Source of the DNA: Paenibacillus lutimineralis
GTDB taxonomy: Bacteria; Bacillota; Bacilli; Paenibacillales; Paenibacillaceae
Direction of reading: 5' to 3'
DNA length: 64,000 nucleotides
NCBI RefSeq assembly: GCF_003991425.1
Contig: NZ_CP034346.1
Span: 4,253,501 to 4,317,500, forward strand
The translations under genes and the position numbers were made by a program. Positions 13,732 to 37,295 of this stretch are shown in pieces. Position 1 is the stretch's first letter; every line of letters begins with the position of its first letter. The notes beneath the pieces are model-generated. The model searched no databases. It had not been told where the DNA came from and saw only the letters and a program-made list of their open reading frames with translations.

Positions 13732-14934
13732 TCAGTTTGCTCGAGCTGCGGACGCCATATCTTTTCGCTCTAAAGATCGGCTCCACAAGGTTAGCAGTAC
13801 GGCGGCCGCGACCATGATCGATCCAATCCAGGCGGTATGAATCAGGCCAAGATGCTCAGTGACAATCCCACCCAGATAAGCACCAAGTGCGATACCTGCG
13901 TTGAAGGCGGCGATGTTAACCGATGAAGCGACGTCAACAGCTTTGGGTGCAAAACGTTCCGCTAACATCACGACATAGACCTGTAATCCTGGCACGTTCA
14001 TAAAAGCCAGAAGTCCCATGCAGAAGATCGTGATTAGTCCGGCCACCTTAAATGGTGCCGTGAATGTGAGAAGAAGCAAAATGACCGCCTGAATCAAGAA
14101 CATATACAGCAAAGCAGTTAATGGCTTGCGGTTGGCCGCTTTGCCTCCGATCACATTGCCGATGGCAATGGCGATGCCATAGAGCAGCAGAATCAGGGCT
14201 ACGGTAGATTCTTTAAAACCGGTAACGTCATGTAGCAGCGGCGACAGGTAGGTAAAGACCACGAAGGTTCCTCCATACCCGAGCGCTGTAATGAGAAAGG
14301 CAAGCAGCAATCTGCCATTGGTAACAATTTTCACCTGGTCTCGGATCGGTGTTCGGACGCCTTTACGAAGATTGCTTGGGACCAGAATCAAATTGGCAAT
14401 CAAAGCGATAATACCGACGATCACGATGGCTATGAATGCGGCTCTCCAGCCAAGCTGTTGGCCGATAAATGTCCCCAGTGGAACACCGGTGACGGTCGCC
14501 ACCGTGAGACCTGAGAACATGATAGATATGGCACTTGCTCTGCGGTCCTCAGCAACTAAATCGGCTGCAATCGTAGACCCGATGGACATAAACACGCCAT
14601 GGGACAAAGCAGATATGATGCGTGCTGTCAGCAGCATGCCGATCCCGGTGGATACTGCCGCTAGGCTGTTGCCAATAATAAACACTAGCATGATGCTGAT
14701 TAGCAGAATCTTGCGCGGTACACCCGACGTGATAGAGGTCAGAATTGGTGCCCCAAAAGTGACGCCCAATGCATATAACGTAACGGTTAATCCTGCGAGG
14801 GTCACCGAAATGTGCAGGTCATTAGCGATCAGGGGTAGCAGCCCCACACTGATAAATTCAGTGGTACCAATCGCAAACGCGCTGATCGCTAAAGCTAACA
14901 AGGCAAAGGTTGCGCGTTTTTTATCTAAAGACAT
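13732..14934 (-). CDS. MFS transporter, DHA1 family (arabinose-efflux/YdhP-like)
   Basis: A 400-residue, 12-span exporter of the AraJ/YdhP type. The N-terminus ALAISAFAIGTTEFISVGLLP is diagnostic of this group; it starts ALAISAFAIGTTEF. The loop after span 2 is degenerate (LTSITSGVPRK), and the motif C-like GVPLGTFIGQQLGWR occurs near residue 155. GGAGTGG precedes the ATG. The gene diverges from an HxlR regulator across a 175-bp gap with a palindrome, so regulation by that protein is likely. The substrate is unknown. Confidence 0.88.
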   Translation of the reverse strand: MSLDKKRATFALLALAISAFAIGTTEFISVGLLPLIANDLHISVTLAGLTVTLYALGVTFGAPILTSITSGVPRKILLISIMLVFIIGNSLAAVSTGIGMLLTARIISALSHGVFMSIGSTIAADLVAEDRRASAISIMFSGLTVATVTGVPLGTFIGQQLGWRAAFIAIVIVGIIALIANLILVPSNLRKGVRTPIRDQVKIVTNGRLLLAFLITALGYGGTFVVFTYLSPLLHDVTGFKESTVALILLLYGIAIAIGNVIGGKAANRKPLTALLYMFLIQAVILLLLTFTAPFKVAGLITIFCMGLLAFMNVPGLQVYVVMLAERFAPKAVDVASSVNIAAFNAGIALGAYLGGIVTEHLGLIHTAWIGSIMVAAAVLLTLWSRSLERKDMASAARAN

Positions 14935-15052
14935 GATTTATTTCCACTCCTATATTTTTCTATAGATTTATTAACCTAACGATTAAGCTGCAGGATAGTA
15001 ATACCGGCCGGTAAGTGTTATTATGTACCCATCGAAGTATTTTGAACAGTAC

Positions 15053-15066
15053 GTACTTTTTAGTAC
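15053..15066. promoter_or_regulatory. HxlR-type operator in the divergent promoter region
   Basis: GTACT-TTTT-AGTAC is a perfect inverted repeat, the common GTACT/AGTAC form of HxlR-family operators. It lies 44 bp before the regulator's ATG. A second small hairpin (GGCAC/GTGCC, 15071-15086) follows. Confidence 0.65.
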
Positions 15067-15109
15067 TATAGGCACCAAAAAGTGCCCATGGATTTGAGGA
15101 GGCATCATT

Positions 15110-15535
15110 ATGGAAAAAAAGAAATACAACATATCGGTTGAAGCTACGCTAGAGGTAATCGGAGGCAAATGGAAGTGCGTGATCCTATGCCATTTAACCC
15201 ATGGCAAGAAGCGGACAAGTGATTTACGGAGGCTGATGCCGTCCATCACCCAAAAGATGCTTACACAGCAGCTCAGAGAGCTGGAGGATGATGGCATTGT
15301 AAACCGATTGATATATCATCAGGTCCCGCCCAAAGTGGAATATGAGCTGACTGAGTACGGCTGGAGCTTGAAACCGATTCTCGACTCGCTCTGCATGTGG
15401 GGAGAGACTCACATTATTAAAGAGTACGGTGACAAATTTGCTGTATTGGAAAATAACATTCTCAACAACAAGGACATCGGCCTCGCGACCGAAGTGGAGC
15501 AATCTGCAAAGGAAAAGGAGCCATCCTTACCCTAA
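15110..15535 (+). CDS. HxlR-family winged-helix regulator
   Basis: A 141-residue protein with the HxlR signature near the N-terminus: VEATLEVIGGKWKCVILCHL (about 9-28), then the recognition helix SITQKMLTQQLRELEDDGIV and a wing with VEYELTEYGWSLKPIL. The two cysteines at about 22 and 26 lie where several HxlR proteins sense reactive aldehydes or oxidants. GAGGAGG precedes the ATG. It is transcribed away from the MFS gene, which it probably represses. Confidence 0.92.
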   Translation: MEKKKYNISVEATLEVIGGKWKCVILCHLTHGKKRTSDLRRLMPSITQKMLTQQLRELEDDGIVNRLIYHQVPPKVEYELTEYGWSLKPILDSLCMWGETHIIKEYGDKFAVLENNILNNKDIGLATEVEQSAKEKEPSLP

Positions 15536-15611
15536 CCATAAAGAAGGGAATGCTACTATTGGAGGCTCGGTTTGTGGACGATCGATACATGGCAAATCCC
15601 CATGATGCAAA

Positions 15612-15650
15612 AAGCTCCTGAAACGTCTCAATGGACAATTTCAGGAGCTT
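15612..15650. terminator. Bidirectional terminator between hxlR and the GH3 gene
   Basis: AAGCTCCTGAAA and TTTCAGGAGCTT form a perfect 12-bp stem with loop GTCTCAATGGACA, usable by the two converging genes. Confidence 0.8.
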
Positions 15651-15700
15651 ATTCATTGTTATATTGGTGCGTCGACAGGGCTCAAACGTCCACGGGGGGT

Positions 15701-17872
15701 CTATGATATACTCAAATTAATATTCTCTCTCAGGAGTGCCTTTTCATCCGAGCTTGGACCCACAAGAAGCACATAGTTGGTATCCTCTAGCACCCATCTT
15801 GCTTCTTCTTCATTGTAATACTCCAGTTCTTTCAAAGCGATCGGAACGACAACCTCTTTGCTTTCTCCGGGGATTAGATGAACTCTTGTAAAGCCTTTTA
15901 ATACTTTGATATGCCTTTCCACTTTGGAGTTAGGAACACTGACATAAACTTGCACAACTTCTTCACCAGCAACGTTCCCTGCATTTCTCACTTTAACCCC
16001 TACATTAACGGAATCGCCTTCCTTCTCGACGTTCAGATCGGAATATAAGTAATTCGTATAACTCAATCCGAAACCGAAAGGATAGGCTGGGGTATGCTTT
16101 TCCTTATCCAATTTACGATAGCCATGATAGAAATCGTAGTGCGCTTGGTGAGAAGAACTATCGAAAGGGTGTAAGTGACTTTCATCGGTTGGAATCACGA
16201 ATGGCAGCTTGCCGCTGGGATTTACATCACCGAACAAAATTCGAGCAAGTGCATTACCGCCTTCCATGCCGGCATACCAACTGTACAGGATGGCTGGAAC
16301 TTTAGCTTCCCATTCTTTAGTCATGATCATACTTCCGCAGACCAGAGATACTACCGTATTTTTATTGATCGAACCAATTTCATTAATTACTTGTATTTCT
16401 TCCTGCCTAAGAGATAAATTTTTTCGGTCTCCTCCTGGAGCAAACGATTCGTTAGACGTGTAGGAAGAGGAAGGAGTTTGTTTCATCATCTCTTTGAATG
16501 CTTCACTTTTCTCAAACATTCCTTGTTGCTCGTAACCTTTAGTGATAAAGTCAACGGCGTTTGTGGAATCCGGCATCACATATTCGCCTTCATCGTTATA
16601 ATCGTTACCGACCACAATCACAACAGCATCTACGTCACTTGCTAGTGCTTTGGCCTTCTCCAACTCATTCTCATGACAATGGATAACTTCTACTTCGTCT
16701 TTAAAATAACTTTGAATTCCCTGTAGTGGGCTTACCGAATAAATTGGATTAATTCTGCTGCTACCATGGTCTCCGAGATTTTCTTTTACAGCCAATCTCC
16801 CGACCAATAAAATTTTCTTCATCTCCTTTTTATTAAATGGTAAAACCTGACCTTCATTCTTGATCAGTACCATCGACTTCTCGGCCGCTTCTCTCGCAAG
16901 TTCAGTGTGAGATTTGCAAGCAATTTTTTCTTTTGAATACGTGACCTTATCTGGTGTGCTTTCAAATGCAATAATGGTTCTGATTACACGAAGTGCAGCT
17001 TGATCAATATAGGTTTCGTCGACCTCTCCCGATTCCACCATTTTCAACAAACTCTCATTGTATTGGACTGGCATGGGCATTTCTACGTCCATTCCAGCTT
17101 CAATAGCTTTTTTCCCATCCCTGATCCCGAATATGAAATCGGATGAAGTAAATCCTTCAAACCCCCATTCATCGCGAAGGATCGTTGTTAACAGATATTT
17201 GCTTTCACATGCATGATCTCCCCTGAACTTGTTATACGAGCCCATTAGAGATGCCGCACCTGCATCCACACATTTCTTGAAATGTGGTAAATAAACTTCT
17301 CTAAGCGTGCGTTCCGACAAATTAACATCCACGTAGAATCGAGTATTCTCAATATTATTTACTGCATAATGTTTTACGCATGCCATCACATTATGATCTT
17401 GCACGCTTTCTGTTAGCGCTTTACCCATTTCTCCAAGTAGGAACGGATCTTCCCCGTAGGTCTCTTGGGCTCGGCCCCATGCAGGATGCATCAAGACATT
17501 AATACAGACACCGGCAAAATAGTTGGCACCGCCCGCTCTTGATTCTATACCAAAAACATCGCCGATACGGCGCTCCAATTCGGTATCAAAGGATGCCCCC
17601 CGAGCCATAGAAACCGGGAAACATGTCGATTGGCCCATAACAACACCCCTAGGACCGTCTGTAAAGGAAACGGGGCTAATGCCTAATCTCTCGTTCCCAT
17701 TGGTTTTGATTGGAATTGGATTATACTGGTTCTCATACTGCACCCCGTTTTCAATTGGATCCCAATTTCCATTCAGCAGCCATACCTTTTCCTTTATGGA
17801 CATCTCTTTTAATAAAGCATTTGCTTTCTCATGAATTTGTTGGTCTGTTAACGTTGATTGTTTATTAAACAT
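15701..17872 (-). CDS. Glycoside hydrolase family 3 (beta-glucosidase type)
   Basis: A 723-residue cytoplasmic enzyme with no signal peptide. The N-terminal TIM-barrel domain has the GH3 landmarks VKHYAVNN (about 166-173) and nucleophile Asp245 in FTSSDF. A C-terminal alpha/beta sandwich follows (about 340-560), then a fibronectin III-like domain (about 620-715). The second-domain acid/base is probably in the KNLSLRQEE region near residue 480. GH3 enzymes of this size usually split beta-glucosides or related oligosaccharides. AAGGAG precedes the ATG. It follows a GPH symporter gene by 71 nt, so imported glycosides are its likely substrates. Confidence 0.92.
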   Translation of the reverse strand: MFNKQSTLTDQQIHEKANALLKEMSIKEKVWLLNGNWDPIENGVQYENQYNPIPIKTNGNERLGISPVSFTDGPRGVVMGQSTCFPVSMARGASFDTELERRIGDVFGIESRAGGANYFAGVCINVLMHPAWGRAQETYGEDPFLLGEMGKALTESVQDHNVMACVKHYAVNNIENTRFYVDVNLSERTLREVYLPHFKKCVDAGAASLMGSYNKFRGDHACESKYLLTTILRDEWGFEGFTSSDFIFGIRDGKKAIEAGMDVEMPMPVQYNESLLKMVESGEVDETYIDQAALRVIRTIIAFESTPDKVTYSKEKIACKSHTELAREAAEKSMVLIKNEGQVLPFNKKEMKKILLVGRLAVKENLGDHGSSRINPIYSVSPLQGIQSYFKDEVEVIHCHENELEKAKALASDVDAVVIVVGNDYNDEGEYVMPDSTNAVDFITKGYEQQGMFEKSEAFKEMMKQTPSSSYTSNESFAPGGDRKNLSLRQEEIQVINEIGSINKNTVVSLVCGSMIMTKEWEAKVPAILYSWYAGMEGGNALARILFGDVNPSGKLPFVIPTDESHLHPFDSSSHQAHYDFYHGYRKLDKEKHTPAYPFGFGLSYTNYLYSDLNVEKEGDSVNVGVKVRNAGNVAGEEVVQVYVSVPNSKVERHIKVLKGFTRVHLIPGESKEVVVPIALKELEYYNEEEARWVLEDTNYVLLVGPSSDEKALLRENINLSIS

Positions 17873-17943
17873 GCTTTCTCTCCTTAGTTTTCTTCTTTCA
17901 TGAACAAAGCGGCCAGCGCTTCACCGCTTCTTCTTCATTGGTT

Positions 17944-19287
17944 TTATTCCTGCATTTTTTTAATTTTTTCCAAGTCCGCAAGCACTCGAGGAAACTCTCT
18001 ATCCAGTTTATAGAACAGGAGGATCCCAATCATGCAAAGACATAAAATTATCGGTAGATAGATGAACATAAACTGTATGGAAGCGATTGCCGATTCGTTT
18101 TGTTGAGCTTGACTACCCACGTACCCACCAACCGCAAGGATCCACCCTACCAAGCCAGCACCGATGCCGCTGCCTGCTTTAAGACCGAAACTGCCGCCGC
18201 TATAAATAAGACCCTCATTACGAATACCAGTCTTCCATTCGCCGTAATCAACCGTGTCTGCAAGCATGGCGAATAAGGTAGCAGACAATGGAACGAATCC
18301 GAAGGACTTAATGACGGTGCTGATGATCACGATAGCCAGCGATGTGGGATCGATAATGAGAACGCAGGAACCGATCATGGAAATGACCAGGCCTGCAATG
18401 GATACATTGCGTTTTCCAAACCGCTTAATGAACGGAGCAATAAGGAAAAAACCAATTAGAACCGGAACCATGCCTGCGAGGCCAAGCGTACCTACTAATT
18501 CAGCATCATTTAGTACATTTTGGGCATAGTAAATGCTTACCCCTGCATTTACGCCGCCGTTAATATAAAAAATGACCATAAGCAAAACGAGTTGCTTCCA
18601 ATATTTATTACGGAACAGAGCTTTAAAACCTCTCTTTATATCTACCTCCTTTCGAACGACAGTCGGCTGAACACGCTCTTTCGTGCTCAAGAAACACACC
18701 AAGAACAGGATGACTGCTATGCCGGAAAAGAGGCCATAAGTAGTAGCCCATCCAGTATTTCCACCGCCGAATGTTTTCACTAACGGCATTGTCAGCATAT
18801 TGACAATAATCGTCGCGACGACAGCGAAAAACATACGGAAGATATTCAAAACAGATCGGTCGTAGGGATCCTGCGTTATTCTCGAATTTAACACACCGTA
18901 TGGAACATTAATTCCGGAATAAACAATATTAACAATAAGATAAGTACAATATGCGAATATTAATGAACCTGCCCCTCCCCAACCTGGATTAGTGAAAAGA
19001 AGGAAGCCCGCGATACCAAACGGAAATGCCATCCGTAATAGCCAAGGACGGGCTTTGCCGTAGCGACTCTTCGTCTTTTCGATCATCACCCCCACCCCAA
19101 TATCTACGAACGCATCAAGTACACGAGCAACAAGCAGCAAAGTACCAACCGCAGCAGCCGTCAGACCCACCACATCCGTGTAGAAAAAAGTAAGAAACGT
19201 ACTAGCTCCTGCCCAAATGAAGTTGCTCGCTAAGTCACCGACACCATAGCCAAGCTTTTCTTTGAAACTAATTTTAATCGTTTCCAT
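17944..19287 (-). CDS. GPH-family (MelB-like) glycoside:cation symporter
   Basis: A 447-residue transporter with 12 predicted spans. The N-terminal KLGYGVGDLASNFIWAGAS is typical of glycoside-pentoside-hexuronide symporters, as are DAFVDIGVGVMIEKTKSRYGKARPW after span 2 (D-x5-G cation site and RxGK(A/F)RPW loop) and the later DTVDYGEWKTGIR signature. These import sugars with Na+ or H+. GGGGGGAG precedes the ATG. It leads the operon with the GH3 glucosidase and diverges from an AraC gene. Confidence 0.93.
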   Translation of the reverse strand: METIKISFKEKLGYGVGDLASNFIWAGASTFLTFFYTDVVGLTAAAVGTLLLVARVLDAFVDIGVGVMIEKTKSRYGKARPWLLRMAFPFGIAGFLLFTNPGWGGAGSLIFAYCTYLIVNIVYSGINVPYGVLNSRITQDPYDRSVLNIFRMFFAVVATIIVNMLTMPLVKTFGGGNTGWATTYGLFSGIAVILFLVCFLSTKERVQPTVVRKEVDIKRGFKALFRNKYWKQLVLLMVIFYINGGVNAGVSIYYAQNVLNDAELVGTLGLAGMVPVLIGFFLIAPFIKRFGKRNVSIAGLVISMIGSCVLIIDPTSLAIVIISTVIKSFGFVPLSATLFAMLADTVDYGEWKTGIRNEGLIYSGGSFGLKAGSGIGAGLVGWILAVGGYVGSQAQQNESAIASIQFMFIYLPIILCLCMIGILLFYKLDREFPRVLADLEKIKKMQE

Positions 19288-19324
19288 TGCCTGCTCCCCC
19301 CGAAAATTCGAATGACAAATTGAT

Positions 19325-19338
19325 TGTAAGGGGTTACA
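19325..19338. promoter_or_regulatory. cre-like palindrome in the symporter/AraC divergent region
   Basis: TGTAAGGGGTTACA differs from the CcpA cre consensus TGWAANCGNTNWCA only at the seventh base. The symporter's possible -10 (TACAAT on the minus strand) lies within it, so binding would repress the operon. An AraC or other regulator site cannot be excluded. Confidence 0.45.
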
Positions 19339-19403
19339 GTATTCAATAATAGGATTTTTCCGGTCTAAATTGTACTTATACTAAAAAATAAGGATATGAT
19401 GTC

Positions 19404-20648
19404 ATGGGATTAATGATTCACGAGGATGAACTTCTTTATGTGTGTGAAATGATGCATCATTATGCAAAAATGCCAATTTTCTCTATTGATCTCATTGGAG
19501 GAACTTTAACATCGTTAGTCTCCAATACAATTGAGAATCCTTTACAGGATAAATGGCTAGAGGATATGCTCCAACATTGTACAAAAAAGGATTTTGACTT
19601 CCCTATTACCGTTATTACGCTTAACAATGTCGAATACTATTTATGCATTCGAGCACGGGAGTCGATGATCAATGATCATATTTTGTTCCTTGGTCCTTGT
19701 GTATTTGATAAAATCACGAAGAATGTTATTTACGATTACATGATTAAGAACAAGGTACCTCGGCAGCTTGAAGAAAAACTGAGAAGCTATCTCCTGTCCC
19801 TTCCACTCTATAACAAATGGACTCTCTCTCGATTTGGTCAAATGTTTTATTATTTGTTGATGAGAGAACGAGTAGGACTTACGGACATTCAATATCTCAC
19901 CCCATTCTCCAGCGACACTGAATCAGAGTTACAGCAACAAGTCGCAAATCAGAAAATAGAGGGATTTCTTCATCATGAAAATAAATATGAAAATATTATA
20001 AGACAACTCATTAAAGAAGGCCGTTTAGATGCTCTCGAAAAGTTGATGGCATCCGTGCCTGAACTACAAGGAAGCGGAACCGTCGCCAGAAACAACCCGG
20101 TTCGTAATGAAAAAAACCTCGCCATTGTATGCGTAACTCTTGCAAGCAGAGCTGCTATGGACGGAGGTTTAAATTCAGAAATAGCGTACACGTTAAGTGA
20201 CATGTTCATTCAACAAATTGAGTCCGATACAAATTTTAATACTTTTGTTGAAACGATAAAGAAAGTGTTCAAGGAATATGCCAAACAGGTTATGCTAGCA
20301 AAGGAGCAACGATATTCCAAAGTAGTTATCAAGGTAGAACAATTTATTTACAACAATCTTTATCAAAAATTGAGTGTACAGGAAATTGCAAACAATGTTG
20401 GCCTGAGTGCTGATTATCTTTCCAAACAGTTTAAGAAAGATACCGGAATAACGATTGTTGATTATATACTTCAGGAGAAAATAAAAGAGGCGAAGAACTT
20501 AATAAACTACACTAATTTATCAATTTCGGAAATCTCGAATTACCTTCAATTTTATGATCAAAGTCATTTCATCCGGGTTTTCAAGCGTATTTGCGGCATA
20601 ACTCCTAAACAATATAAGCTTCAAAATTTAAATTTAGATATCGGTTAG
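19404..20648 (+). CDS. AraC-family transcriptional regulator of the GH3/symporter operon
   Basis: A 414-residue regulator. The C-terminal 100 residues are the AraC DNA-binding domain, with two HTHs: LSVQEIANNVGLSADYLSKQF (about 315-335; first part LSVQEIANNVGLSADY) and LSISEISNYLQFYDQSHF followed by RICGITPKQYK. The N-terminal 300 residues are not a cupin I can recognise; they resemble the sensor halves of other Paenibacillus AraC regulators beside glycoside operons. Only weak SD (AAGGAT) precedes the ATG. Its position, divergent from the symporter gene, makes it the likely activator. Confidence 0.85.
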   Translation: MGLMIHEDELLYVCEMMHHYAKMPIFSIDLIGGTLTSLVSNTIENPLQDKWLEDMLQHCTKKDFDFPITVITLNNVEYYLCIRARESMINDHILFLGPCVFDKITKNVIYDYMIKNKVPRQLEEKLRSYLLSLPLYNKWTLSRFGQMFYYLLMRERVGLTDIQYLTPFSSDTESELQQQVANQKIEGFLHHENKYENIIRQLIKEGRLDALEKLMASVPELQGSGTVARNNPVRNEKNLAIVCVTLASRAAMDGGLNSEIAYTLSDMFIQQIESDTNFNTFVETIKKVFKEYAKQVMLAKEQRYSKVVIKVEQFIYNNLYQKLSVQEIANNVGLSADYLSKQFKKDTGITIVDYILQEKIKEAKNLINYTNLSISEISNYLQFYDQSHFIRVFKRICGITPKQYKLQNLNLDIG

Positions 20649-20711
20649 CCATTGCTTCTTAGGGGTCTATCTGAGCATCCTTACCGAGTTGATTGCCTGA
20701 TTGATAAAAAG

Positions 20712-20949
20712 TTGAAATGTGAAATTGGCTGTGCTACAATGCTACTAATTAATCTAGGGAGATGATGAGAATAATGTAATTTCTTGCTTATTTACGAATG
20801 ATAAAACAAAACTGTTTTATTCTTTGTTAAGTAAGAAAGTTACTTACTCTCTTTACTCAAATAAAGCATCCAATCCATTGGGTTAGATTTTAGTATTTGT
20901 TTATTTGAGCTACAAGGAAGGTAACTTTCTTTGTAGCTCTTTTATTTTT
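20712..20949 (+). promoter_or_regulatory. Promoter and antibiotic-type transcription attenuator (leader)
   Basis: TTGAAA (20712-20717) and TACAAT (20735-20740) are 17 bp apart. Downstream lie AGGGAG and a minimal leader ORF (ATG-ATG-AGA-ATA-ATG-TAA, 20762-20779). Then come three competing structures: AGTAAG/CTTACT (20830-20848), CTCAAATAAA/TTTATTTGAG (20857-20866 with 20900-20909), and an intrinsic terminator GAGCTACAAGGAA/TTCTTTGTAGCTC with TTTTATTTTT (about 20907-20949). AAGAAAGTTAC (20833-20843) is the exact complement of GTAACTTTCTT (20921-20931) in the terminator, so it can act as antiterminator. This layout is known for drug-induced attenuators of ABC-F and erm genes. Confidence 0.78.
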
Positions 20950-20992
20950 CTGAGGTTTTAAAGTGATAACATATCTATGAAGGAGAATGATT

Positions 20993-21055
20993 ATGTCTCG
21001 TAAGAATATTACTATAACCCATGTTCAATTCCATGCAAAGACAGATATTTGGTGA
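20993..21055 (+). pseudogene. Truncated start of an ABC-F-like gene (20 codons)
   Basis: Behind the attenuator, AGGAG precedes ATG at 20993 and an ORF of 20 codons that stops at 21053. Its first residues, MSRKNITITHVQFH, look like the opening strand of an ABC ATPase domain of ABC-F ribosome-protection proteins. The likeness fades after about residue 14, where an 11-bp inverted repeat begins. The simplest reading is a resistance gene deleted after its first codons, leaving promoter and attenuator. A genuine short leader peptide is the alternative. Confidence 0.45.
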
Positions 21056-21068
21056 TATTTGCATGGAA
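21029..21068. repeat. Perfect 11-bp inverted repeat
   Basis: TTCCATGCAAA and TTTGCATGGAA flank an 18-nt loop. There is no following T run, so it is not a terminator. It coincides with the point where the ABC-F-like coding sequence ends. Confidence 0.7.
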
Positions 21069-21136
21069 TAACATCATCACCAATCATGCTGGCTTTGCTA
21101 CTTGAGATCCTACATTTATTCAAGGAGTGAATCTAC

Positions 21137-21400
21137 ATGAGGTATATCAACGCTAATGACATTCTCCCAAAAGAATTGGTTGAAAAATTGCAAGATTTTA
21201 TACAAGGTGAATACATCTACATTCCCGCAATTAAAGATCAACATAAAAATTGGGGAGAATTATCCGGTTTTCGTAAAGAGATTGATAGGAGAAATAGTGA
21301 AATAATACAAGCATATAATTCTGGTAATTCGATTCAGGAACTTGCAGAATCTTACTGCCTTTCTGTTTATGCTATCAGAAAAATAATTTATAACAAATAA
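21137..21400 (+). CDS. CD3324-family small helix-turn-helix protein
   Basis: An 87-residue protein of the CD3324 type, widespread and uncharacterised in Bacillota. The N-terminus MRYINANDILPKELVEKLQ and the core YIYIPAIKDQHKNWGELSG are family hallmarks. The C-terminal 30 residues (SIQELAESYCLSVYAIRKII) form a probable HTH resembling Mor/sigma region 4 motifs. AAGGAG precedes the ATG. It is followed by a strong terminator and lies in the AT-rich segment between the orphan attenuator and the L4 paralogue. A DNA-binding role is inferred. Confidence 0.75.
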   Translation: MRYINANDILPKELVEKLQDFIQGEYIYIPAIKDQHKNWGELSGFRKEIDRRNSEIIQAYNSGNSIQELAESYCLSVYAIRKIIYNK

Positions 21401-21437
21401 AAACGCTGAACTGCGATCCTTATTGTGCACAAATTAT

Positions 21438-21475
21438 AAGATGATCCCTGTACTCACACGGGACCATCTTTTTTT
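21438..21475 (+). terminator. Intrinsic terminator of the CD3324-like gene
   Basis: AAGATGATCCC pairs with GGGACCATCTT (one mismatch) and is followed by TTTTT. The 127 nt after it hold no supported gene and should contain the L4 paralogue's promoter, for which I see no convincing hexamers. Confidence 0.85.
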
Positions 21476-21602
21476 GTCCCCTAATGCAGGTTATACCAAA
21501 CATTACAGAGCCGTTTTGTGTATAGTTTATGTGATTTCTATCTGTTACCTTAATTACTAGCAGTTCTTCTAGAATGTAGCAGGACAAACGGAGGTTAATA
21601 TA

Positions 21603-21692
21603 ATGGATGCTATTGTAAATATACAAAGAACATTTAGCAAGTTATCTAATACAATGAAGTTTTTACTATGGATGTGGGTACCGACATCATGA
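21603..21692 (+). CDS. Leader ORF of 29 codons before the L4 paralogue
   Basis: A complete small ORF with an excellent ribosome site (GGAGG, 8 nt before ATG at 21603). It ends 26 nt before the L4 gene. The peptide is hydrophobic at its C-terminal end (MKFLLWMWVPTS), with two Trp codons and a late Pro, the kind of sequence that can stall ribosomes. It is unlike any ribosomal protein start. CCGTTTTG upstream (from 21512) can nearly pair with CAAACGG (21585-21591) next to its SD. A regulatory leader is inferred from position and SD. Confidence 0.5.
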   Translation: MDAIVNIQRTFSKLSNTMKFLLWMWVPTS

Positions 21693-21718
21693 AAGTTTAG
21701 GATCTGGAGGAAAGAATA

Positions 21719-22342
21719 ATGTTAAATGTTAACATTTTTAATATGGATGGTATTAGTGTTGGTGAAATGGAACTTGAAGAATCCATTTTCGGTATTATTC
21801 CCAATGAATCAGTTATGCATGATGCAGTTCTAAATTATCTGGCAAATAATCGCAGCGGAACCCAATCTGCATTAACACGTGGTGAAGTTAGAGGCGGTGG
21901 TAGAAAACCATATAAGCAGAATAAAATTAATAAATCTAGAGCAGGTTCGATTCGTATGCCTCATTGGCGTGGCGGAGGGGTTGTGTTTGCTCCTAAACCT
22001 CGCGACTACAGCTATAGACTCAATAAAAAGGTGAAGAGACTTGCTATAAAATCTGCATTATCTAGCAAAGTACAGAACAAAGAATTCATTGTCGTCGACG
22101 AAATTAAGTTGGAAAACTACAGGACAAAGTCTATAGTAGCTATGCTTAATGCTCTTGGGGCAGAGAAAAAGGTGCTAATTGTTACACCTATAATAAATAA
22201 CTTTGTTTTTAAAAGCGCCAATAACATTCCTGGTGTAGAAACCACTGTGGCGGATTCACTTCATGTATACAACGTTCTGAATTGTGATAAATTAATAATC
22301 GCCAAGGAAGCTGTCAATATGATTACGGAAATGTACTCATAA
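21719..22342 (+). CDS. rplD: Ribosomal protein L4 paralogue outside the S10 operon
   Basis: A 207-residue, full-length homologue of large-subunit protein L4, the normal length. It keeps EVRGGGRKP (about 56-64), GSIRMPHWRGGGVVF and the KKVKRLAIKSALSSKV helix. The extended loop that reaches the peptide exit tunnel is changed: where typical L4 has WRQKGTGRARQGS this protein has YKQNKINKSRAGS, so six residues in a row at the tip (KGTGRA) are replaced. In ordinary L4, changes there give macrolide resistance. No other ribosomal gene is adjacent, so it is an extra copy. GGAGG precedes the ATG, and a leader ORF and its own terminator frame it. A role as a drug-insensitive replacement is inference. 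Confidence 0.92.
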   Translation: MLNVNIFNMDGISVGEMELEESIFGIIPNESVMHDAVLNYLANNRSGTQSALTRGEVRGGGRKPYKQNKINKSRAGSIRMPHWRGGGVVFAPKPRDYSYRLNKKVKRLAIKSALSSKVQNKEFIVVDEIKLENYRTKSIVAMLNALGAEKKVLIVTPIINNFVFKSANNIPGVETTVADSLHVYNVLNCDKLIIAKEAVNMITEMYS

Positions 22343-22349
22343 CATTTTT

Positions 22350-22390
22350 AACCCGCCAAAAGCCTTGTAAAATCAAGACTTTTGCGGGTT
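22350..22390 (+). terminator. Intrinsic terminator of the L4 paralogue
   Basis: AACCCGCCAAAAGCCTTG and CAAGACTTTTGCGGGTT form a long stem with small mismatches, followed by seven T residues. Confidence 0.9.
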
Positions 22391-22408
22391 TTTTTATTCT
22401 TGCCTATA

Positions 22409-22978
22409 TTAATAGTCTAGCAGACGTCCATTATCGTTCCATTGGCCGTACATTTTGTTTTCTTTCGTGTTTGTTATGAATTTGTCTAATCTGCTCCTAA
22501 ATAATTCTGGCTGATTCTTATTGCTTTGTATCGTGTCGATCCGAATTCTTTTATACAGATCAGGAAATGCCATGAAATTCTCATATACTTGCTCATCTGC
22601 TTTTAGCCTTTGCTCTATCACCCTATCTATACTAAAAGAATCTGGAGTCATATCGGGAAGAACCTTTCTTCCCTCCTCCCTCATGAACCCCAACTTTTCG
22701 AGGCGGCGGACACGTTCTTTATTCAATTCAGTCCATGAACTTTTTTTACTTCTAGGGGACAGCCTCTGTGCCAGATCCGTCTCCGATATTTTCTTTTTGA
22801 CTCCGTCAATCCATCCAAAGCATAACGCTTCCTCTACTGCGTCCAAATATAACAACATATTCGGGGTGGACGTCATACTAACCAAGAACCAGCAAGACTT
22901 TTCAATCTTACAATTGTTCTGCAGCCAAATTCTTAAATCTACTCTTGATTTTACTGGAATTAGATCTCCGATTTCCAT
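22409..22978 (-). CDS. YdeI/OmpD-associated-like family protein
   Basis: A 189-residue protein of the YdeI ('bacteriocin-protection') family. It has VEEALCFGWIDGVKKKI (about 48-64) and QRLSPRSKKSSWTELNKERVRRL (about 70-92; core SPRSKKSSWTELNKERV), the two signatures of the family. The biochemical role is unknown. An in-frame TGA just upstream fixes the ATG at 22978; the nearest SD-like sequence (AGGAGT) is 13 nt away. It ends close to the L4 terminator and stands alone. Confidence 0.82.
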   Translation of the reverse strand: MEIGDLIPVKSRVDLRIWLQNNCKIEKSCWFLVSMTSTPNMLLYLDAVEEALCFGWIDGVKKKISETDLAQRLSPRSKKSSWTELNKERVRRLEKLGFMREEGRKVLPDMTPDSFSIDRVIEQRLKADEQVYENFMAFPDLYKRIRIDTIQSNKNQPELFRSRLDKFITNTKENKMYGQWNDNGRLLDY

Positions 22979-23041
22979 AAATCAAATCCATACTCCTGTT
23001 CTGAATTGATTCATATCGCCTATGTGATACACAATATTGAG

Positions 23042-23506
23042 TTACTGTTTGTTGGAAATAACGTTATTTAGAAACTTGTCTGCGTCACTATTAAACTTCC
23101 AGGAAACTCCGAACTTATCGACCAGCATCCCAAAACACGAAGACCAAGGCGTATTGGATAACGGCATGATAACATAACCACCTACAGACAAATTAGAAAA
23201 ATAATTTTCTAGTGCCTGTTTATCATCATTAACGATACTAATCAGTATATTATTGCCTTTAACCAACTCGCCCGTTACACTCTTCATCGAAGGTAGAATA
23301 TCCGACATCATGATTTCCCCGCCTGCAAATTCTACTGAAGACTCCATGATCATATTTAACTCATTTTCCGGTAACGGGTAGTTTGGATCTTGCGGAAAAT
23401 CCTTAAATTTAACTTTTTTTACTTCAATTGCGTTCAAAGCCTCCGAATAAAAATCAATCGCTTGTTCTGCAACCCCATCAAAGTTTAAATAGACAATAGC
23501 TGACAT
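23042..23506 (-). CDS. PhnB-like VOC-superfamily (glyoxalase fold) protein
   Basis: A 154-residue protein taking ATG at 23506, which has AAGGAGG nine bases before it; a longer reading frame to 23560 lacks a ribosome site. Features of the PhnB/3-demethylubiquinone methyltransferase-like VOC group are YLNFDGVAEQAIDFYSEAL at the start, GGEIMMSDILP (about 74-84) and the ending SSCFGMLVDKFGVSWKFN. The function of these single-domain proteins is mostly unknown. It diverges from a WYL regulator across a perfect palindrome. Confidence 0.88.
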   Translation of the reverse strand: MSAIVYLNFDGVAEQAIDFYSEALNAIEVKKVKFKDFPQDPNYPLPENELNMIMESSVEFAGGEIMMSDILPSMKSVTGELVKGNNILISIVNDDKQALENYFSNLSVGGYVIMPLSNTPWSSCFGMLVDKFGVSWKFNSDADKFLNNVISNKQ

Positions 23507-23552
23507 AAAGCAAAACCTCCTTCTTGTTATAAATGTAGTATAATGAATAAGA

Positions 23553-23572
23553 GGTGACATACGTATGTCACC
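23553..23572. promoter_or_regulatory. Perfect 20-bp palindromic operator
   Basis: GGTGACATACGTATGTCACC lies between the VOC gene and the WYL regulator. Perfect symmetry and position make it the likely binding site of the divergent regulator. Confidence 0.75.
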
Positions 23573-23607
23573 ATTTATAAATAAAGTTTAAAAAAGAAGG
23601 AGAACAT

Positions 23608-24519
23608 ATGGAAAAGGTTGAGAGATTAATATCCATCATCATGATATTGCTGAAAAAGGATGTTGTTTCAACCAAAGAATTTGCACAGTTATTTAACGTT
23701 ACCAAAAGAACGATTCTTCGTGATATGGAAACATTGAGTTTATCAAACATCCCCATCTATTCTGTCAACGGAGTTCATGGTGGCTACGGTATTATGGACG
23801 AATATAAGGTTGATAAACGTCTTTTAAGCAGCTCCGACTTGCAGAATATATTGACGGCGCTCGGCGGATTGGAACAAATTCTAATTAGCGAAGAAGTTGA
23901 AGTGACGATAAAAAAAATAGAAGCCATGGTTAGCCCGTTGTCTCCGAAAGGTTCCATCCAACTGTCATTTTATGATTGGGAGGGTCGGTCCGAAATTCGT
24001 CAAACCTTGAAGATGTGTCAAGAGGCCATATTAGCAAGAAGATTGATTTCATTTGATTATATCGATAAAAATGGCATGATGACGAAGAGAATGGTCGAAC
24101 CATATCAGCTTCATTTCAGTGAAACGAGTTGGTATTTGAAAGGATTCTGTTTGCATCGCATGAGATATAGAACATTTAAATTATCTAGGATCGATCAGTT
24201 TCATATCGATGAAGAAACATTTAACCCTAGGGATTATTCGTTAGAACAAGAACATGAAACAAGTTATCAACCAGAACTAGTCGCTGTAAGAGCGTTGATT
24301 TCGCCCAGCATAAAAGATCATTTTATAGAAAGGTATGGTCGAAAGAGTATTGAAAACTATAGTTCTGAACTTTTATTGGCAACAATCCATGTTCCTCAAA
24401 ACAGTTTTGGATTTCAATTTTTAGCAAGCTTCGGTACAAATCTAGAAATCATAGAGCCAAAAACTTATGTTGAAGATTTTCGGAATTATTTACATGAAAT
24501 GATGAAGAAATATTCTTAA
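23608..24519 (+). CDS. YafY-type HTH/WYL-domain transcriptional regulator
   Basis: A 303-residue regulator. The N-terminal HTH (about 18-50) includes VSTKEFAQLFNVTKRTILRD, the WYL domain (about 130-215) holds the namesake segment in SWYLKGF near 173, and the C-terminal WCX part runs to the end. WYL domains bind nucleotides or other ligands and often control DNA repair or defence genes; here the only obvious target is the divergent VOC gene. AAGGAG precedes the ATG. Confidence 0.9.
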   Translation: MEKVERLISIIMILLKKDVVSTKEFAQLFNVTKRTILRDMETLSLSNIPIYSVNGVHGGYGIMDEYKVDKRLLSSSDLQNILTALGGLEQILISEEVEVTIKKIEAMVSPLSPKGSIQLSFYDWEGRSEIRQTLKMCQEAILARRLISFDYIDKNGMMTKRMVEPYQLHFSETSWYLKGFCLHRMRYRTFKLSRIDQFHIDEETFNPRDYSLEQEHETSYQPELVAVRALISPSIKDHFIERYGRKSIENYSSELLLATIHVPQNSFGFQFLASFGTNLEIIEPKTYVEDFRNYLHEMMKKYS

Positions 24520-24571
24520 GAAGGTAACGCACAAGTGTTGAGCAATACTTATAAACCCCGAATATGCAAAA

Positions 24572-24606
24572 AGCTCCTGAACCGTCTCAAGGACATTTCA
24601 GGAGCT
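24572..24606. terminator. Bidirectional terminator after the WYL regulator
   Basis: AGCTCCTGAA and TTCAGGAGCT form a 10-bp stem with the shared loop GTCTCAAGGACA, followed by GATTTTTT on the + strand and GCATATTC on the minus strand. Confidence 0.8.
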
Positions 24607-24689
24607 GATTTTTTGGGCATGGTAAGATCGTGTCGCAGGCTTGGATGGCCTCCCCCGCTAATTTAGACGATGAACCATTATGGTGTCTC

Positions 24690-25502
24690 TTAGATCGAAA
24701 TGATCTGCAAGCAATCCTGAACTTCCTTCAGCGCTTCCGTCGTTCTCCATTCTTTGCGATAACCGAGACAAGCGCAGATCATCTCCGTGTCCTGTTCCTT
24801 CATTCGCTTGCGGTAATGGACATGGCCCATAATCCCGTAGCGCACCTTGTATTTATGATACAGTCCGGCATACTCATTACTCCCGAGAAAAGCATTAAAA
24901 TACTGCCACTGTGGGTGATCGACAGGCGCCTTAAAATAAGGGTGGGTGAGCATATGGGTAACCATAATGATATTTTGGCCCTGATGCCGCTCCAATTCCT
25001 GCTCTAAATGCCGATAGAAGTAGCGATGAATCTCTTGATTGCTCATGTCCCACTTTACGTAAATGCTGTCCTGCCAGGTTCGGTCCATAGCGTGCATTTT
25101 CTCGAAATCAGCGAAACTGTATTTGGGCTCGCCCATTGTATAGTCGTACCAACCGGAATTGCCGATAATGACCCAATTATCATCAAGCTGAATTGGATTT
25201 TGACTCAAACAGCCTTCATAAGACTGATATTGTCTGTAAATCTCCCAGGTATCGATTATGCCGTTATCCTTGCTCCAATAATCATGGTTACCTGGCACGA
25301 ATAGTACCGGAATGCCTGATTCAGCCTTTAGTCTCCTCAGTACAGCCAAGCTTCGATTCACATCATTGGAAATATCCCCGGCAATGATCAGATGCTGCAA
25401 ATCACTAGCAGCAACGACCTCAAGCAATATATCCTCAATCAGCGGCTGCCCGGATACTTCGTTTAGATCAACATGCAGATCCGATATGACTCCTATTCTC
25501 AT
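24690..25502 (-). CDS. Metallophosphoesterase (calcineurin-like)
   Basis: A 270-residue binuclear metal phosphoesterase. All signature motifs are present: GVISDLHVD (near 4), IIAGDISND (near 42), VPGNHDYW (near 75), IIMVTHML and IMGHVHYRK. The start is ATG at 25502, because AGGAGG lies eight bases before it; a longer frame to 25520 has the SD inside it. It overlaps the end of the OppF-like gene by 35 nt and is the last gene of the peptide-transport operon. The substrate is unknown; candidates are cyclic nucleotides, phosphoproteins or a phosphorylated import product. Confidence 0.9.
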   Translation of the reverse strand: MRIGVISDLHVDLNEVSGQPLIEDILLEVVAASDLQHLIIAGDISNDVNRSLAVLRRLKAESGIPVLFVPGNHDYWSKDNGIIDTWEIYRQYQSYEGCLSQNPIQLDDNWVIIGNSGWYDYTMGEPKYSFADFEKMHAMDRTWQDSIYVKWDMSNQEIHRYFYRHLEQELERHQGQNIIMVTHMLTHPYFKAPVDHPQWQYFNAFLGSNEYAGLYHKYKVRYGIMGHVHYRKRMKEQDTEMICACLGYRKEWRTTEALKEVQDCLQIISI

Positions 25503-26475
25503 GAACTGCTTCCTCCTCATATAAATGACAACTAACGTAATGACCGGCTTCCTGACTGCGTAGTACAGGGGTTGAGTGACGGCACTGCTCTACAGCCAAA
25601 GGACATCTGGGATGGAAAGCACAACCGGGCGGCGGAGAAATGGGATTAGGAACATCTCCGGACAATACGATACGTTCCTTCTGGCGACTTCCTACTTGAG
25701 GGATCGACGAAAATAACGCACGTGTATAAGGATGCAGCGGCCCGCCGCCTGCTTCCACATCGAAAATCTCCACCATTTTTCCCAAATACATCACACCTAC
25801 TCGATCACTCATGTACTGAACAACATTCAGGTCATGTGAGATGAACAGATAAGTCAGGCCGCGCACCCGCTGCAGCTCCTTCAGCAGATTCAGGATTTGC
25901 GACTGAACGGAAACATCGAGCGCCGAAACCGCCTCATCGATAACGATAAATTTAGGGTTCAGAACTAGAGCCGAAGCAATCCCGACCCGTTGTTTTTGGC
26001 CGCCGCTAAGCTCATGAGGATAGCGCTGAAGGTGGCTTTGATCCAATCCAACCTGTTCCAGCACTTCGCTTATGATTTTTTGCCGTTCAGCCTTGCTGCC
26101 GATTTGATGGATGATCAGCGGCTCTTCCAGCAGCCAGCCGATTTTTTTCTTCGGATTAAGCGAAGAATAGGGGTCTTGGAAGACGATTTGCAGCTCCTTG
26201 CGCAGCGCCTTCATCTCATGCTTGGACAGATTGGTAATATCTCTGCCAGCAAAATGGATCTGCCCACCCGTGTGCTGCACTAAATGAACGAGCATTTGCC
26301 CTGTCGTTGATTTACCGCAACCGCTCTCCCCAACTAGTCCAAACGTTTCACCTTCGCTGATGTCAAAAGAAACACCATTTACCGCCCTTACGTACTTCTT
26401 CTCTTCTAACAGTCCCTGTCTCGCTACCTCATAGTGCTTCGATAAATCCTCAACCCGGAGTAGAGGCTGTGTCAT
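25468..26475 (-). CDS. oppF: Peptide ABC transporter ATP-binding protein, OppF-like
   Basis: A 335-residue ATPase with Walker [12 protein letters not shown], signature LSGGQKQR and Walker B FIVIDEAVSALD. It ends with the oligopeptide-transporter C-terminal region, whose cysteines (PPPGCAFHPRCPLAVEQC; about 287-304) can hold an iron-sulphur cluster in this subfamily. It pairs with the OppD-like ATPase, which it overlaps by 4 nt. The Opp/Dpp name is by family; the substrate is not known. Confidence 0.92.
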   Translation of the reverse strand: MTQPLLRVEDLSKHYEVARQGLLEEKKYVRAVNGVSFDISEGETFGLVGESGCGKSTTGQMLVHLVQHTGGQIHFAGRDITNLSKHEMKALRKELQIVFQDPYSSLNPKKKIGWLLEEPLIIHQIGSKAERQKIISEVLEQVGLDQSHLQRYPHELSGGQKQRVGIASALVLNPKFIVIDEAVSALDVSVQSQILNLLKELQRVRGLTYLFISHDLNVVQYMSDRVGVMYLGKMVEIFDVEAGGGPLHPYTRALFSSIPQVGSRQKERIVLSGDVPNPISPPPGCAFHPRCPLAVEQCRHSTPVLRSQEAGHYVSCHLYEEEAVHENRSHIGSAC

Positions 26476-27464
26476 ACGGCTTCACCTACCCCAGAATAAA
26501 GATGGCAACGAACTTGATGCTGCTCGGCTACTTGCTCTAGTTGCGGCACACGCTCCCTACATTCCGGCAGCGCCTGCGCACAACGCCCGGCAAAAGGACA
26601 ACCGCCAGGCCGTTCCGTAATCGGCGGAACTCTGCCAGGTATCGTGTACAGAGGCTGTCCTCGCTTGCCGATATCAGGAATACATTGCAGTAAGCCGCGG
26701 GTATACGGGTGCTTCGGTTCCTCTAATATACGTTGTACCGGTGCGTCCTCAACGATATACCCGGCGTACATGACCAGAACCCGATCGCATACCTCGCGAA
26801 TAACCCCCAAATCATGAGAGATAAAGATAATCGCTGTACCCATCGTTTCATTAATATCACGTAGTAGCTGGAGAATCTGAGCCTGTATCGTAACATCCAG
26901 TGCCGTCGTGGGCTCATCAGCGATCAACAGCCGTGGATTGCAAATCAACGCCATGGCAATCATCACTCTCTGCCGCATCCCGCCGGAGAGCTGATGAGGG
27001 TAGTCACTATACAACTGCTCAACTCTGGATAGACCAACCTTGGTCATCATTTCGAGTGCCTGTTCTTTGGCCTCCTTCTTTGTAACAGCGGAATGTATGA
27101 ATAGCGTCTCAGCAATTTGCTTGCCGATCGGTACTAGAGGATTTAATGCGGTCATGGGGTCTTGAAAGATCATAGAGACCTGTTTCCCCCTGATTTCGCA
27201 CCAGGCCTCCGGGGTTAAGCCACTTACCTCCAGCCCATCCATAACAATTTGGCCTTTTGTCGTCTTTGCCGTACCCGGCAGCAAGCCCATCACGGATAAT
27301 GAAGTCAGGCTCTTGCCACAGCCAGATTCACCTACAATGCCTACTACTTCCTTCTCTCCTACCTGAAAGGAGATATCCTGCAAAGCTGGATTGCTCTTCC
27401 CGTTAACGGAAAAGGCAACCTCCACATTCTCCAAGGCCAATAAAACCGGATTCATGATGTCCAC
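26472..27464 (-). CDS. oppD: Peptide ABC transporter ATP-binding protein, OppD-like
   Basis: A 330-residue partner ATPase: Walker [12 protein letters not shown], signature LSGGMRQR, Walker [13 protein letters not shown]. Its C-terminal four-cysteine region ([19 protein letters not shown]) is of the same kind as in the OppF-like protein. It is packed tightly between the OppC-like gene (3 nt) and the OppF-like gene (4-nt overlap), so the order B-C-D-F is the canonical peptide/nickel importer arrangement. Confidence 0.92.
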
Positions 27465-27467
27465 CCC

Positions 27468-28295
27468 CTAGCTCTTCCTGTCATAAAGATCACGAAGCCC
27501 ATCTCCCAATAAATTGAAACCCAGAACCATGATCGTAATGATCACACCTGTAATAAGAACATACCAGGGAGCATTGATCATAAAAGGCTGCGCTTCATTC
27601 AGCATTCTGCCCCAGCTTGGGTCAGGTGGCTGTACGCCTAGTCCCAAATAGCTCAACCCGGCCTCGGCCAGAATGGAGCCTGAGAATCTCAATGAGGTGG
27701 CAACAATAAGGGACGAAGCAATATTAGGCAAAATATGATACCAGATGACTCGCAGCGGCCCTGCCCCTTTGGCTATTGTCGCCTTAACGAAATCAAACTC
27801 CTTATACTGCATAAAACCGCTGCGGGCAATCCGTGAGAAGGAGGGAATACTCATAATGCCTAAGGCCATAATCGTATTGTTCAGTCCCGGACCAAATACC
27901 GAAACAAGCATGATGGCCAGCAAAATGCCCGGAAAAGCCAGCATCGCATCCATCAAACGCATAATCACTTCGTCCAGCCAGCCTCCGAAATAGCCGGAGA
28001 TAGCACCAATAAGTACCCCCAAGGATAATCCGATCAGCACAGAACTTAACCCTATAAGAAAAGCGGTCTGTGAGCCCTTCATAATCCGACTGAAGATATC
28101 CCGCCCGAAATTATCTGTCCCAAATAAGTGGGACAACTGGGGATGGGATAACCGCATGCCGGAATTCATATCGTTAGGGCCATAGGGAGTGTAGAACAAA
28201 CTGATCAACATCATCAGCAATAACAGGGCAATGAGCGAACTGCCGATAAGGAGCGGCTTGCTTTTAGTTAACTGCTTCCAATTCATAGCTTTCAC
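27468..28295 (-). CDS. oppC: Peptide ABC transporter permease, DppC/OppC-like
   Basis: A 275-residue membrane protein with about six spans. It has the DppC-type N-terminus (one span, then YGPNDMNSGMRLSHPQLSHLFGTDNFGRD, where HLFGTDNFGRDIFSR is diagnostic) and the permease coupling loop EAGLSYLGLGVQPPDPSWG. It overlaps the OppB-like gene by 4 nt. Confidence 0.93.
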   Translation of the reverse strand: MKAMNWKQLTKSKPLLIGSSLIALLLLMMLISLFYTPYGPNDMNSGMRLSHPQLSHLFGTDNFGRDIFSRIMKGSQTAFLIGLSSVLIGLSLGVLIGAISGYFGGWLDEVIMRLMDAMLAFPGILLAIMLVSVFGPGLNNTIMALGIMSIPSFSRIARSGFMQYKEFDFVKATIAKGAGPLRVIWYHILPNIASSLIVATSLRFSGSILAEAGLSYLGLGVQPPDPSWGRMLNEAQPFMINAPWYVLITGVIITIMVLGFNLLGDGLRDLYDRKS

Positions 28296-29236
28296 CTTTT
28301 CAACCGGATCCGGGGATCGATGACTTTATAGAGCATGTCGACGATAAAATTAATACTGACGACAATCACGGCAATATACAGCACCATCGTTTGTACCAGC
28401 GGCAGATCTCGCGCCCCGATGGAGCTGACCAGCAAATTTCCAATACCCGGGAGCGCAAATACATTCTCAACCACAATACTGCCTCCGAGCGTATCGGCAA
28501 TTAATAACCCGACAATGGTAATGACCGGAATCATTCCGTTGCGCAGTATATGGTGGTACATGATTCCCTTCTCATGCAGACCTTTGCTTCTAGCCGTCCG
28601 TACATAATCCATGCGCGATTGATCCAGCAGCGTATTTCTTAAATAACGGATCACCACCGCGAACCCGGGAATAGCGAGGGCCAGAGAGGGCAGGAACAAC
28701 GACCTGATAGCACCAAACGGATTTGTGCTCCATGAAGTATATCCATAGGTCGGGAACAATTTGAACGTGACTGAGAATAATAAGATTAAAATAAAAGCCA
28801 GCCAAAATGAAGGCACCGATACGCCTAACTGCGTAAATAACGACAGGAGCAAGGACGATAACTTGCCGTCTCTTCTGGCAATATAAATCCCCAGGGGGAG
28901 CCCTATGATCAGGGTCAGCCCCAGGGAGAATAAAGCCAAGGATAAGGTAACCGGTAGACGCTCCAATAACAGGTCGGCTACCGGTCTGTTATATCGCACC
29001 GAGGTGCCGAAATCGCCGGATAAGGTATCCTTGATCCACATCAAATAACGTTCTCCGGCCGATCGGTCAAGCCCCATTGCTTCGTGCAAAGCGGCAATTT
29101 GCTGCGGGTCTGCATCCACACCGAGAATAATTTGCGCCGGGTCTCCGGGAAGAACCTGAAATACCAGAAACGTAATGACGGACACAAGAACCAGGGTAGA
29201 TATAAAGGTGATCAGCTTGCGAATATAAAATCTCAA
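28292..29236 (-). CDS. oppB: Peptide ABC transporter permease, DppB/OppB-like
   Basis: A 314-residue membrane protein with about six spans. The N-terminus reads TLVLVSVITFLVFQVLPGDP, ending in the family's LPGDPA motif, and the EAA-type coupling loop YVRTARSKGLHEKGIMYHH is present, as is the C-terminal VVENVFALPGIGNLL. It forms the translocation pore with the DppC-like permease. It lies 14 nt after the binding-protein gene. Confidence 0.93.
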   Translation of the reverse strand: MRFYIRKLITFISTLVLVSVITFLVFQVLPGDPAQIILGVDADPQQIAALHEAMGLDRSAGERYLMWIKDTLSGDFGTSVRYNRPVADLLLERLPVTLSLALFSLGLTLIIGLPLGIYIARRDGKLSSLLLSLFTQLGVSVPSFWLAFILILLFSVTFKLFPTYGYTSWSTNPFGAIRSLFLPSLALAIPGFAVVIRYLRNTLLDQSRMDYVRTARSKGLHEKGIMYHHILRNGMIPVITIVGLLIADTLGGSIVVENVFALPGIGNLLVSSIGARDLPLVQTMVLYIAVIVVSINFIVDMLYKVIDPRIRLKR

Positions 29237-29250
29237 GATATTCCCCTACT

Positions 29251-30855: not shown

Positions 30856-30876
30856 GTTGATTTTCCCCTTCCTGAA

Positions 30877-31611: not shown

Positions 31612-31632
31612 TGCTATTTCCTTTCCAACACG

Positions 31633-37205: not shown

Positions 37206-37211
37206 TCTTGA

Positions 37212-37295
<84 letters not shown>

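Follow-up and report, generated by a model that had tools for sequence, protein, structure and literature searches.

A second ribosomal protein uL4 with a rewritten loop tip in Paenibacillus lutimineralis, linked to cfr in most relatives examined

L4' and the Ordinary rplD

The window, the whole 64,000-nucleotide stretch that we analysed, is C1:4253501-4317500 of the 6.50-Mb single-contig genome of Paenibacillus lutimineralis; plain positions below are window positions. An ORF at 21719-22342 (+) reads as a complete uL4 of 207 aa, which we name L4'. It scores 220.9 bits against Pfam Ribosomal_L4 (cut-off 25.8) and 222.7 bits against the NCBIfam equivalog rplD_bact (TIGR03953, cut-off 130.1), and by ORF, profile matches and alignment is an alternative uL4 whose tip, at residues 68-73, is N-K-I-N-K-S. 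A search of its own genome with L4' at E 1 or better gave a single further match, with 51% identity between the two aligned copies: the ordinary rplD at G000:C1:5702413-5703021 (-), 1.4 Mb away in the S10 operon, preceded by S10 and L3 and followed by L23 and L2 (neighbours recognised from their translations). Because that other L4 sits between L3 and L23/L2, L4' is the second L4 of the genome, a separate gene outside the S10 operon. GC content is 37% in L4', 44% in the window and 47% in the ordinary rplD.

A preliminary description of this DNA had presented L4' as a complete L4 homologue standing alone. The ORF, the Pfam and NCBIfam scores and a reading by eye of the ORF translations from 14000 to 32000, where no other ribosomal-protein gene was recognised, agree with this as far as ribosomal-protein genes are concerned; L4' is, however, part of an eroded multi-gene cassette. 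The refuting case that it named, a genome in which this is the only L4, does not apply, since the S10 operon has its normal rplD.

Elsewhere in the window, an L33 of 49 aa that has just two cysteines (zinc-free type by eye) is encoded at 2490-2639, adjoining a CobW-like GTPase ORF (1252-2469), and two tRNA-Leu genes, both with the CAG anticodon, lie 25 kb apart on the minus strand (37210-37296 and 62068-62151).

Cassette Remains in the Window

Upstream of L4' the window keeps part of a cassette from which cfr and an ABC-F gene are missing; the attenuator, the regulator gene, a leader and the intact L4' remain. The stretch 20709-20949 is the leader that precedes a Lsa ABC-F gene in one relative (locus L132) and cfr in other loci. 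A sigma-A-like promoter (TTGAAA, 17 nt, TACAAT) is predicted for this retained attenuator at 20714-20740 (+); the hit, listed at 20712-20740, scores 10/12 in a scan that found 6 such sites against 7.7 in shuffles and is weak alone, and its position is kept in 16 aligned relatives. Reading of the sequence further predicts a short leader ORF of five codons, MMRIM, ahead of the attenuator (20762-20779, +); across the 16 aligned loci its ATAATGTAA end is strongly conserved, and its start codon is missing from some. The 20709-20949 leader closes with a terminator stem and T tail, found by scan and alignment (20907-20949, +). Thirteen of its 14 pairs are formed in 16/16 sequences, with double changes at two pairs, and by our reading an alternative pairing could make this terminator an attenuator.

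Blastn alignment of the window with its relatives breaks at 20950-20965, and in most relatives the sequences flanking this break are separated by some 0.4 to 1.8 kb or more. We infer a deletion scar, the junction lying where relatives hold cfr (in L132 also ABC-F). The window leader runs almost directly into the sequence that follows cfr elsewhere, so that the next gene, of the CD3324 family, may now follow the old attenuator.

That gene is preceded by a leader ORF, predicted by reading the sequence, that ends THVQFHAKTDIW and has a stem-loop (20993-21055, +); a leader ORF with this ending and a strong stem-loop precedes CD3324 in many loci. The gene itself (21137-21400, +) encodes an 87-aa Mor-type helix-turn-helix protein, a candidate regulator by its profile matches (NF040785, 114.2 bits, cut-off 65; Pfam Mor, 27 bits, cut-off 24.9). 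Between it and the L4' unit the scan predicts a terminator (21447-21470, +). The L4' unit has a promoter element recognised by conservation (21493-21525, +), with the dyad ATAC.AAAC ... CGTTTTGTRTAT, a -10 TATAGT and no clear -35. There follow a predicted 29-codon leader ORF, MDAIVNIQRT..., which has a strong ribosome site and was likewise recognised by conservation (21603-21692, +), L4' itself, and a terminator (stem CCCGC...GCGGG, T run; 22350-22395, +) that was seen by eye and is absent from the scan list.

The Loop Tip

A K-x-T-G tip is typical of bacterial uL4, with no formal family criterion attached to it, and the tip lines the exit tunnel at the site of nascent-chain sensing. The window L4' has KQNKINKSRA there, against (R/K)QK(G/D/S)TG(R/H/N)(A/H)R in the ordinary protein; the alignment requires no gap, so the loop has been rewritten at constant length. 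For comparison we assembled 171 ordinary Bacillota L4s (104/104 loci for which tblastn was the sole means of selection, together with the 67 proteins P0057-P0122 and P0045) and 48 L4' proteins (of 120 listed matches, those ranking above P0057, minus P0045 and minus those of fewer than 205 residues, plus P0001). N-K-I is present in 48/48 L4' and K-x-T-G in 171/171 ordinary L4s; the border between the two sets was drawn after the loops were known, and a tree made without the loop columns recovers the same group (21 of the 48 members sampled). The tip consensus across all 48 is K-(Q/N)-N-K-I-(D/N/G)-(K/R)-S-R-A. The preliminary description was right that the tunnel loop is rewritten, and the N-K-I proves to be subfamily-wide and not free to vary among homologues; the NKINKS that it emphasised is a minority form (2 of 48), the usual one being NKIDKS or NKIDRS.

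Columns were counted as conserved when at least 95% of the ordinary L4s agree (74 columns), and as switched when at least 80% of L4' have a different residue. By this measure 66 of the 74 are unswitched and eight are switched: W65Y, K68N, G69K, T70I, G71D, A73S, Q75A and Q82H. The switches fall at seven of the nine conserved columns at 65-75, against one of 65 elsewhere (Fisher p = 1.6e-7); this value and the 48/48 vs 171/171 split place the tip pattern beyond chance. According to the portion of PMC8614978 available to us, K63E in E. coli L4 gave erythromycin resistance, and E. coli Lys63, a classical position for such resistance, aligns with N68 of L4'. The AlphaFold model of L4' has the L4 fold and is matched best in the PDB by L4 chains of ribosomes; pLDDT is below 50 at residues 53-88, tip included, and the model of the tip was left unused.

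The cfr-L4' Cassette in Relatives

We surveyed 23 distinct L4' loci: the window, L132-L152 and L033 (L032, L034, L035 and L036 are duplicates). L4' is full length in 22 and truncated in L141. A full-length Cfr gene lies upstream of L4', starting at most 2.5 kb away, in 19 of the 23; the Cfr gene is split in one (L147) and absent from three (the window, L150 and L152), of which L150 retains the cfr leader ORF. Four of the 19 full-length cassette Cfr proteins were scanned, and all exceed the TIGR04432 cut-off of 550 (617, 638, 633 and 616 bits). A CD3324-family gene is present in 22/23 loci. Lsa ABC-F is intact in one locus (L132, where with 754 bits it narrowly passes the NF000167 cut-off of 750) and is found as fragments upstream of cfr in three (L149, L133 and L134); these fragments, in differing decay beside the intact L132 copy, argue for stepwise loss of cassette members.

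Cfr anywhere in the genome (E 1e-110 or better) accompanies L4' in 17 of 18 family genomes, against 55 of the 376 family genomes lacking L4' (p = 8e-13). In the window's genome the Cfr that enters this count is a different one, away from L4'. The resistance link proposed in the preliminary description thus takes the form of genomic linkage to Cfr, seen among the neighbours of homologues with this loop, and once to Lsa ABC-F, together with the leader ORF before L4'. Since cfr lies close to L4' in most of the relatives examined, L4' can probably be regarded as a mobile spare, one that would help ribosomes to go on working under antibiotics.

The same linkage, above all to Cfr, would suit a fitness partner of Cfr that is not itself a resistance factor and would tune the tunnel so that m8A2503 ribosomes cope normally with nascent chains and leader peptides. 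We regard this as unlikely. Close Cfr (at least 88%) occurs in 14 family genomes where no L4' was found (for G255, one of these, the contig stops shortly after cfr), which makes L4' an accessory of the cassette, dispensable with Cfr. Conversely, L4' is intact where its neighbour cfr is gone, as in the window, L150 and L152. The window locus weighs less against a Cfr partner, because its genome has another Cfr elsewhere (G000:C1:3424590-3425609, L154), a stand-alone gene whose product is 58% identical to the cassette type and above the Cfr cut-off.

Promoter Element and Possible Leader Control

The promoter element is found within 5 mismatches in 21 of the 23 L4' loci, and the MDAIVN-type leader ORF before L4' is conserved in start and peptide type in 20, a conservation of moderate strength since few synonymous changes were available. 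A [VI]VN[VI] run, in the cfr leader (MFEVVNV...) as in the L4' leader (MDAIVNI...), is common to most loci. A nascent-chain sensor would be expected to look like this, its start conserved with synonymous changes in places and its tail free to vary.

A model in which stalling on the leader opens the ribosome site of L4' was examined by folding. Predicted accessibility on stalling goes up in 9, down in 9 and is equal in 1 of 19 loci (L034, L035, L036, L139, L140 and L141 were excluded beforehand as duplicates or leaderless, and L134 failed the start pattern); with no consistent direction, simple translational attenuation is unsupported. For leaders of the P. lautus type, a consensus fold made from 6 of 7 loci (the leader region of the excluded L144 is shortened) places a stem 3' of the leader, with double changes at 3 of 52 pairs, too small a number to speak for or against it. 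We would guess that CD3324, as a Mor-type activator, acts on the L4' promoter lacking a -35.

The many leader ORFs of the cassette, and a rewritten tip that lines the tunnel at the site of nascent-chain sensing, might also speak for L4' as a regulator on or off the ribosome, altering leader-peptide stalling or competing with L4 in S10-operon control. This seems to us quite improbable: that 66 of the 74 conserved columns are unswitched is a better fit to a full ribosomal part.

A Second RqcH Gene

Apart from the L4' site, a pattern derived from the L4' promoters matches the genome at a single place when 2 mismatches are allowed (this site has 1; the backward control gave 0). A longer version, designed with knowledge of both sites, finds no further place at up to 3 mismatches. 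The second copy of the element sits 120 nt before a gene for a 545-aa RqcH homologue, with a terminator-like hairpin in between. This second RqcH/NFACT gene (G000:C1:1064484-1066118; locus L189:2185-3822) encodes a protein that scores 245.8 bits for NFACT_N and matches the solved RqcH 7as8 at E 3.6e-71; it stays under the cut-offs of EfbA (294.9 of 1025) and archaeal RqcH (93.8 of 400). Another RqcH-like gene in the same genome is 37% identical over the best stretch.

The second RqcH was found in 4 of 22 searched genomes with L4', the remaining 18 being without it, vs none of 32 genomes lacking L4' (p = 0.023). Among 295 family genomes it occurs in three, all with L4' (p about 2e-4, taking 18 of these 295 to be L4' carriers; 3e-3 when the window's genome is left out). 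Its distance from L4' is 2.4 kb in G443, 11 kb in G285 and 13 kb in G354, and 3.2 Mb in the window's genome. The element lies upstream, within 2 mismatches, at all four second RqcH copies. Between element and RqcH, G354 has an MDAIVN leader and a C-terminal fragment of L4' (E 2e-21 against P0050; the reversed-protein control was empty), and G285 has a shorter, weak candidate fragment of L4' (E 0.01). Because element, leader and L4' fragment precede the second RqcH, an ancestral L4'-RqcH operon appears to be the best explanation. Outside this group, among the matches listed, the second RqcH has one taxon-named relative, a 45% identical protein of Clostridium/Erysipelotrichaceae.

At L034:953-1768 (P. 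albiflavus), a gene for a 272-aa SpoU/TrmH-type RNA methyltransferase lies ahead of both the cfr-L4' cassette and the second RqcH. Its best match is RlmB, at 130 bits under the cut-off of 160, and it is perhaps a further rRNA-modifying member of the cassette.

Selection, Ancestry and Spread

L4' is under purifying selection, with pairwise dN/dS of 0.08-0.16 between the window copy and 21 distinct other copies. We give very little credence to L4' as a decaying, functionless passenger of a resistance island: the cassette does erode, with the window lacking cfr and ABC-F, L141 carrying a truncated L4' and L195 an L4' fragment before the second RqcH, but 22 of 23 L4' genes are full length and the low dN/dS and universal N-K-I of L4' argue for function.

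In the tree made without loop columns (58 sampled rows), the 21 L4' rows all come out together as a single clade (100/99), which groups with three Clostridia-type L4s (100/95), one of them (P0060) named Oscillospiraceae, while 11 Paenibacillaceae L4s form a separate, starred clade. Counting its own genome each time, L4' is present in 2 of 40 genomes of the genus, 18 of 394 of the family, 8 of 392 of the order (5 of these 8 are also in the family count) and 2 of 398 of the class. Identity between families is up to 92%. A pattern search of genome contigs gave at least five L4' loci. By tblastn, no L4' was found in the plasmid collection (62 records, 20 of them listed, all below 60% identity) or in the phage collection (14 records, all below 60% identity). 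Sporadic presence, Clostridia-like kinship, between-family identity and low GC together make the pattern of a horizontally transferred gene, pointing to acquisition of L4' by horizontal transfer. The donor is only indicated, the tree being unrooted and thin in other Bacilli.

Proposed Role

Our main reading, to which we give a probability of roughly 60%, is that L4' is a second uL4, likely made under drug stress, which is predicted to replace uL4 so that an antibiotic binding the tunnel or the peptidyl-transferase centre no longer stops the 50S subunit. The drug or a stalled ribosome would be sensed via the leader ORF, CD3324 or both, and drug-stalled ribosomes would turn on L4' and related units. 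L4' would then assemble into new 50S subunits through its unchanged body, where the new tip would alter drug contact and lower drug action, or would suit the Cfr-methylated A2503 pocket. Where present, the second RqcH would clear 50S subunits that are already stalled. The loop position suggests macrolides as the target drug, as one option only. The spectra of Cfr and Lsa centre on drugs of the peptidyl-transferase centre, and a macrolide role of L4' would fill a gap beside them.

More tentatively, and with somewhat less than even odds in our view, the whole may be a mobile refit of the ribosome, in which drug stress brings out the alternative uL4 and, in some lineages, RqcH from the same kind of promoter, beside Cfr and ABC-F. 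Stalled 50S subunits would then be cleared, new ones made with a drug-tolerant tunnel, and rRNA methylated, a transferable antibiotic response by swapping a core ribosomal protein. Such a system would tie ribosome rescue (RqcH) to the drug response. L4' would also offer a natural, conserved tunnel variant for the role of the L4 loop in drug binding and nascent-chain sensing.

Comparison with Known Systems

Known resistance to ribosome-targeting drugs comes from rRNA methylation, ABC-F protection, efflux, drug modification and point mutations. With a transferable second tunnel protein, the exchange of a ribosomal component would join these routes. Both alternative ribosomal proteins and spare drug targets have precedents. 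In the open-access literature (subscription papers were outside the scope) we found no L4 gene with cfr; no spare tunnel protein of a transferable, cfr-linked kind was found in the available portions of PMC5155152, PMC11047308, PMC12186496 and PMC8614978, and the term 'ribosomal protein' is absent from the main text of PMC5155152 and PMC11047308. L4' copies would escape resistance catalogues because the sources name them simply 50S ribosomal protein L4.

L4' is like ordinary uL4 (rplD, TIGR03953) in fold, length and 66 of the 74 conserved columns, and differs from it as an extra copy outside the S10 operon, with N-K-I for K-x-T-G and its own leader and promoter. Like other paralogous ribosomal proteins, it accompanies a normal copy in the genome and is kept by purifying selection. 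Zinc-independent paralogues (C- L33 and the like) are also second copies of ribosomal proteins, and by analogy L4' may likewise be conditionally useful; their trigger is zinc loss, whereas L4' is linked to drug-resistance genes. Macrolide-resistant rplD alleles (K63E, loop deletions) affect the same loop and, by alignment, the same lysine (PMC8614978, portion available); these are mutations of the sole L4, however, and L4' is a second gene with its loop fixed across species. The cassette methyltransferase belongs to the Cfr family; an orthologue of the Cfr-like ClPa is described for Paenibacillus LC231 in the available portion of PMC5155152. That portion also lists a second IleRS (mupirocin) for LC231. 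Such spare resistant targets share with L4' the idea of an extra copy of the target, but they are single enzymes, whereas L4' would be one part of the ribosome.
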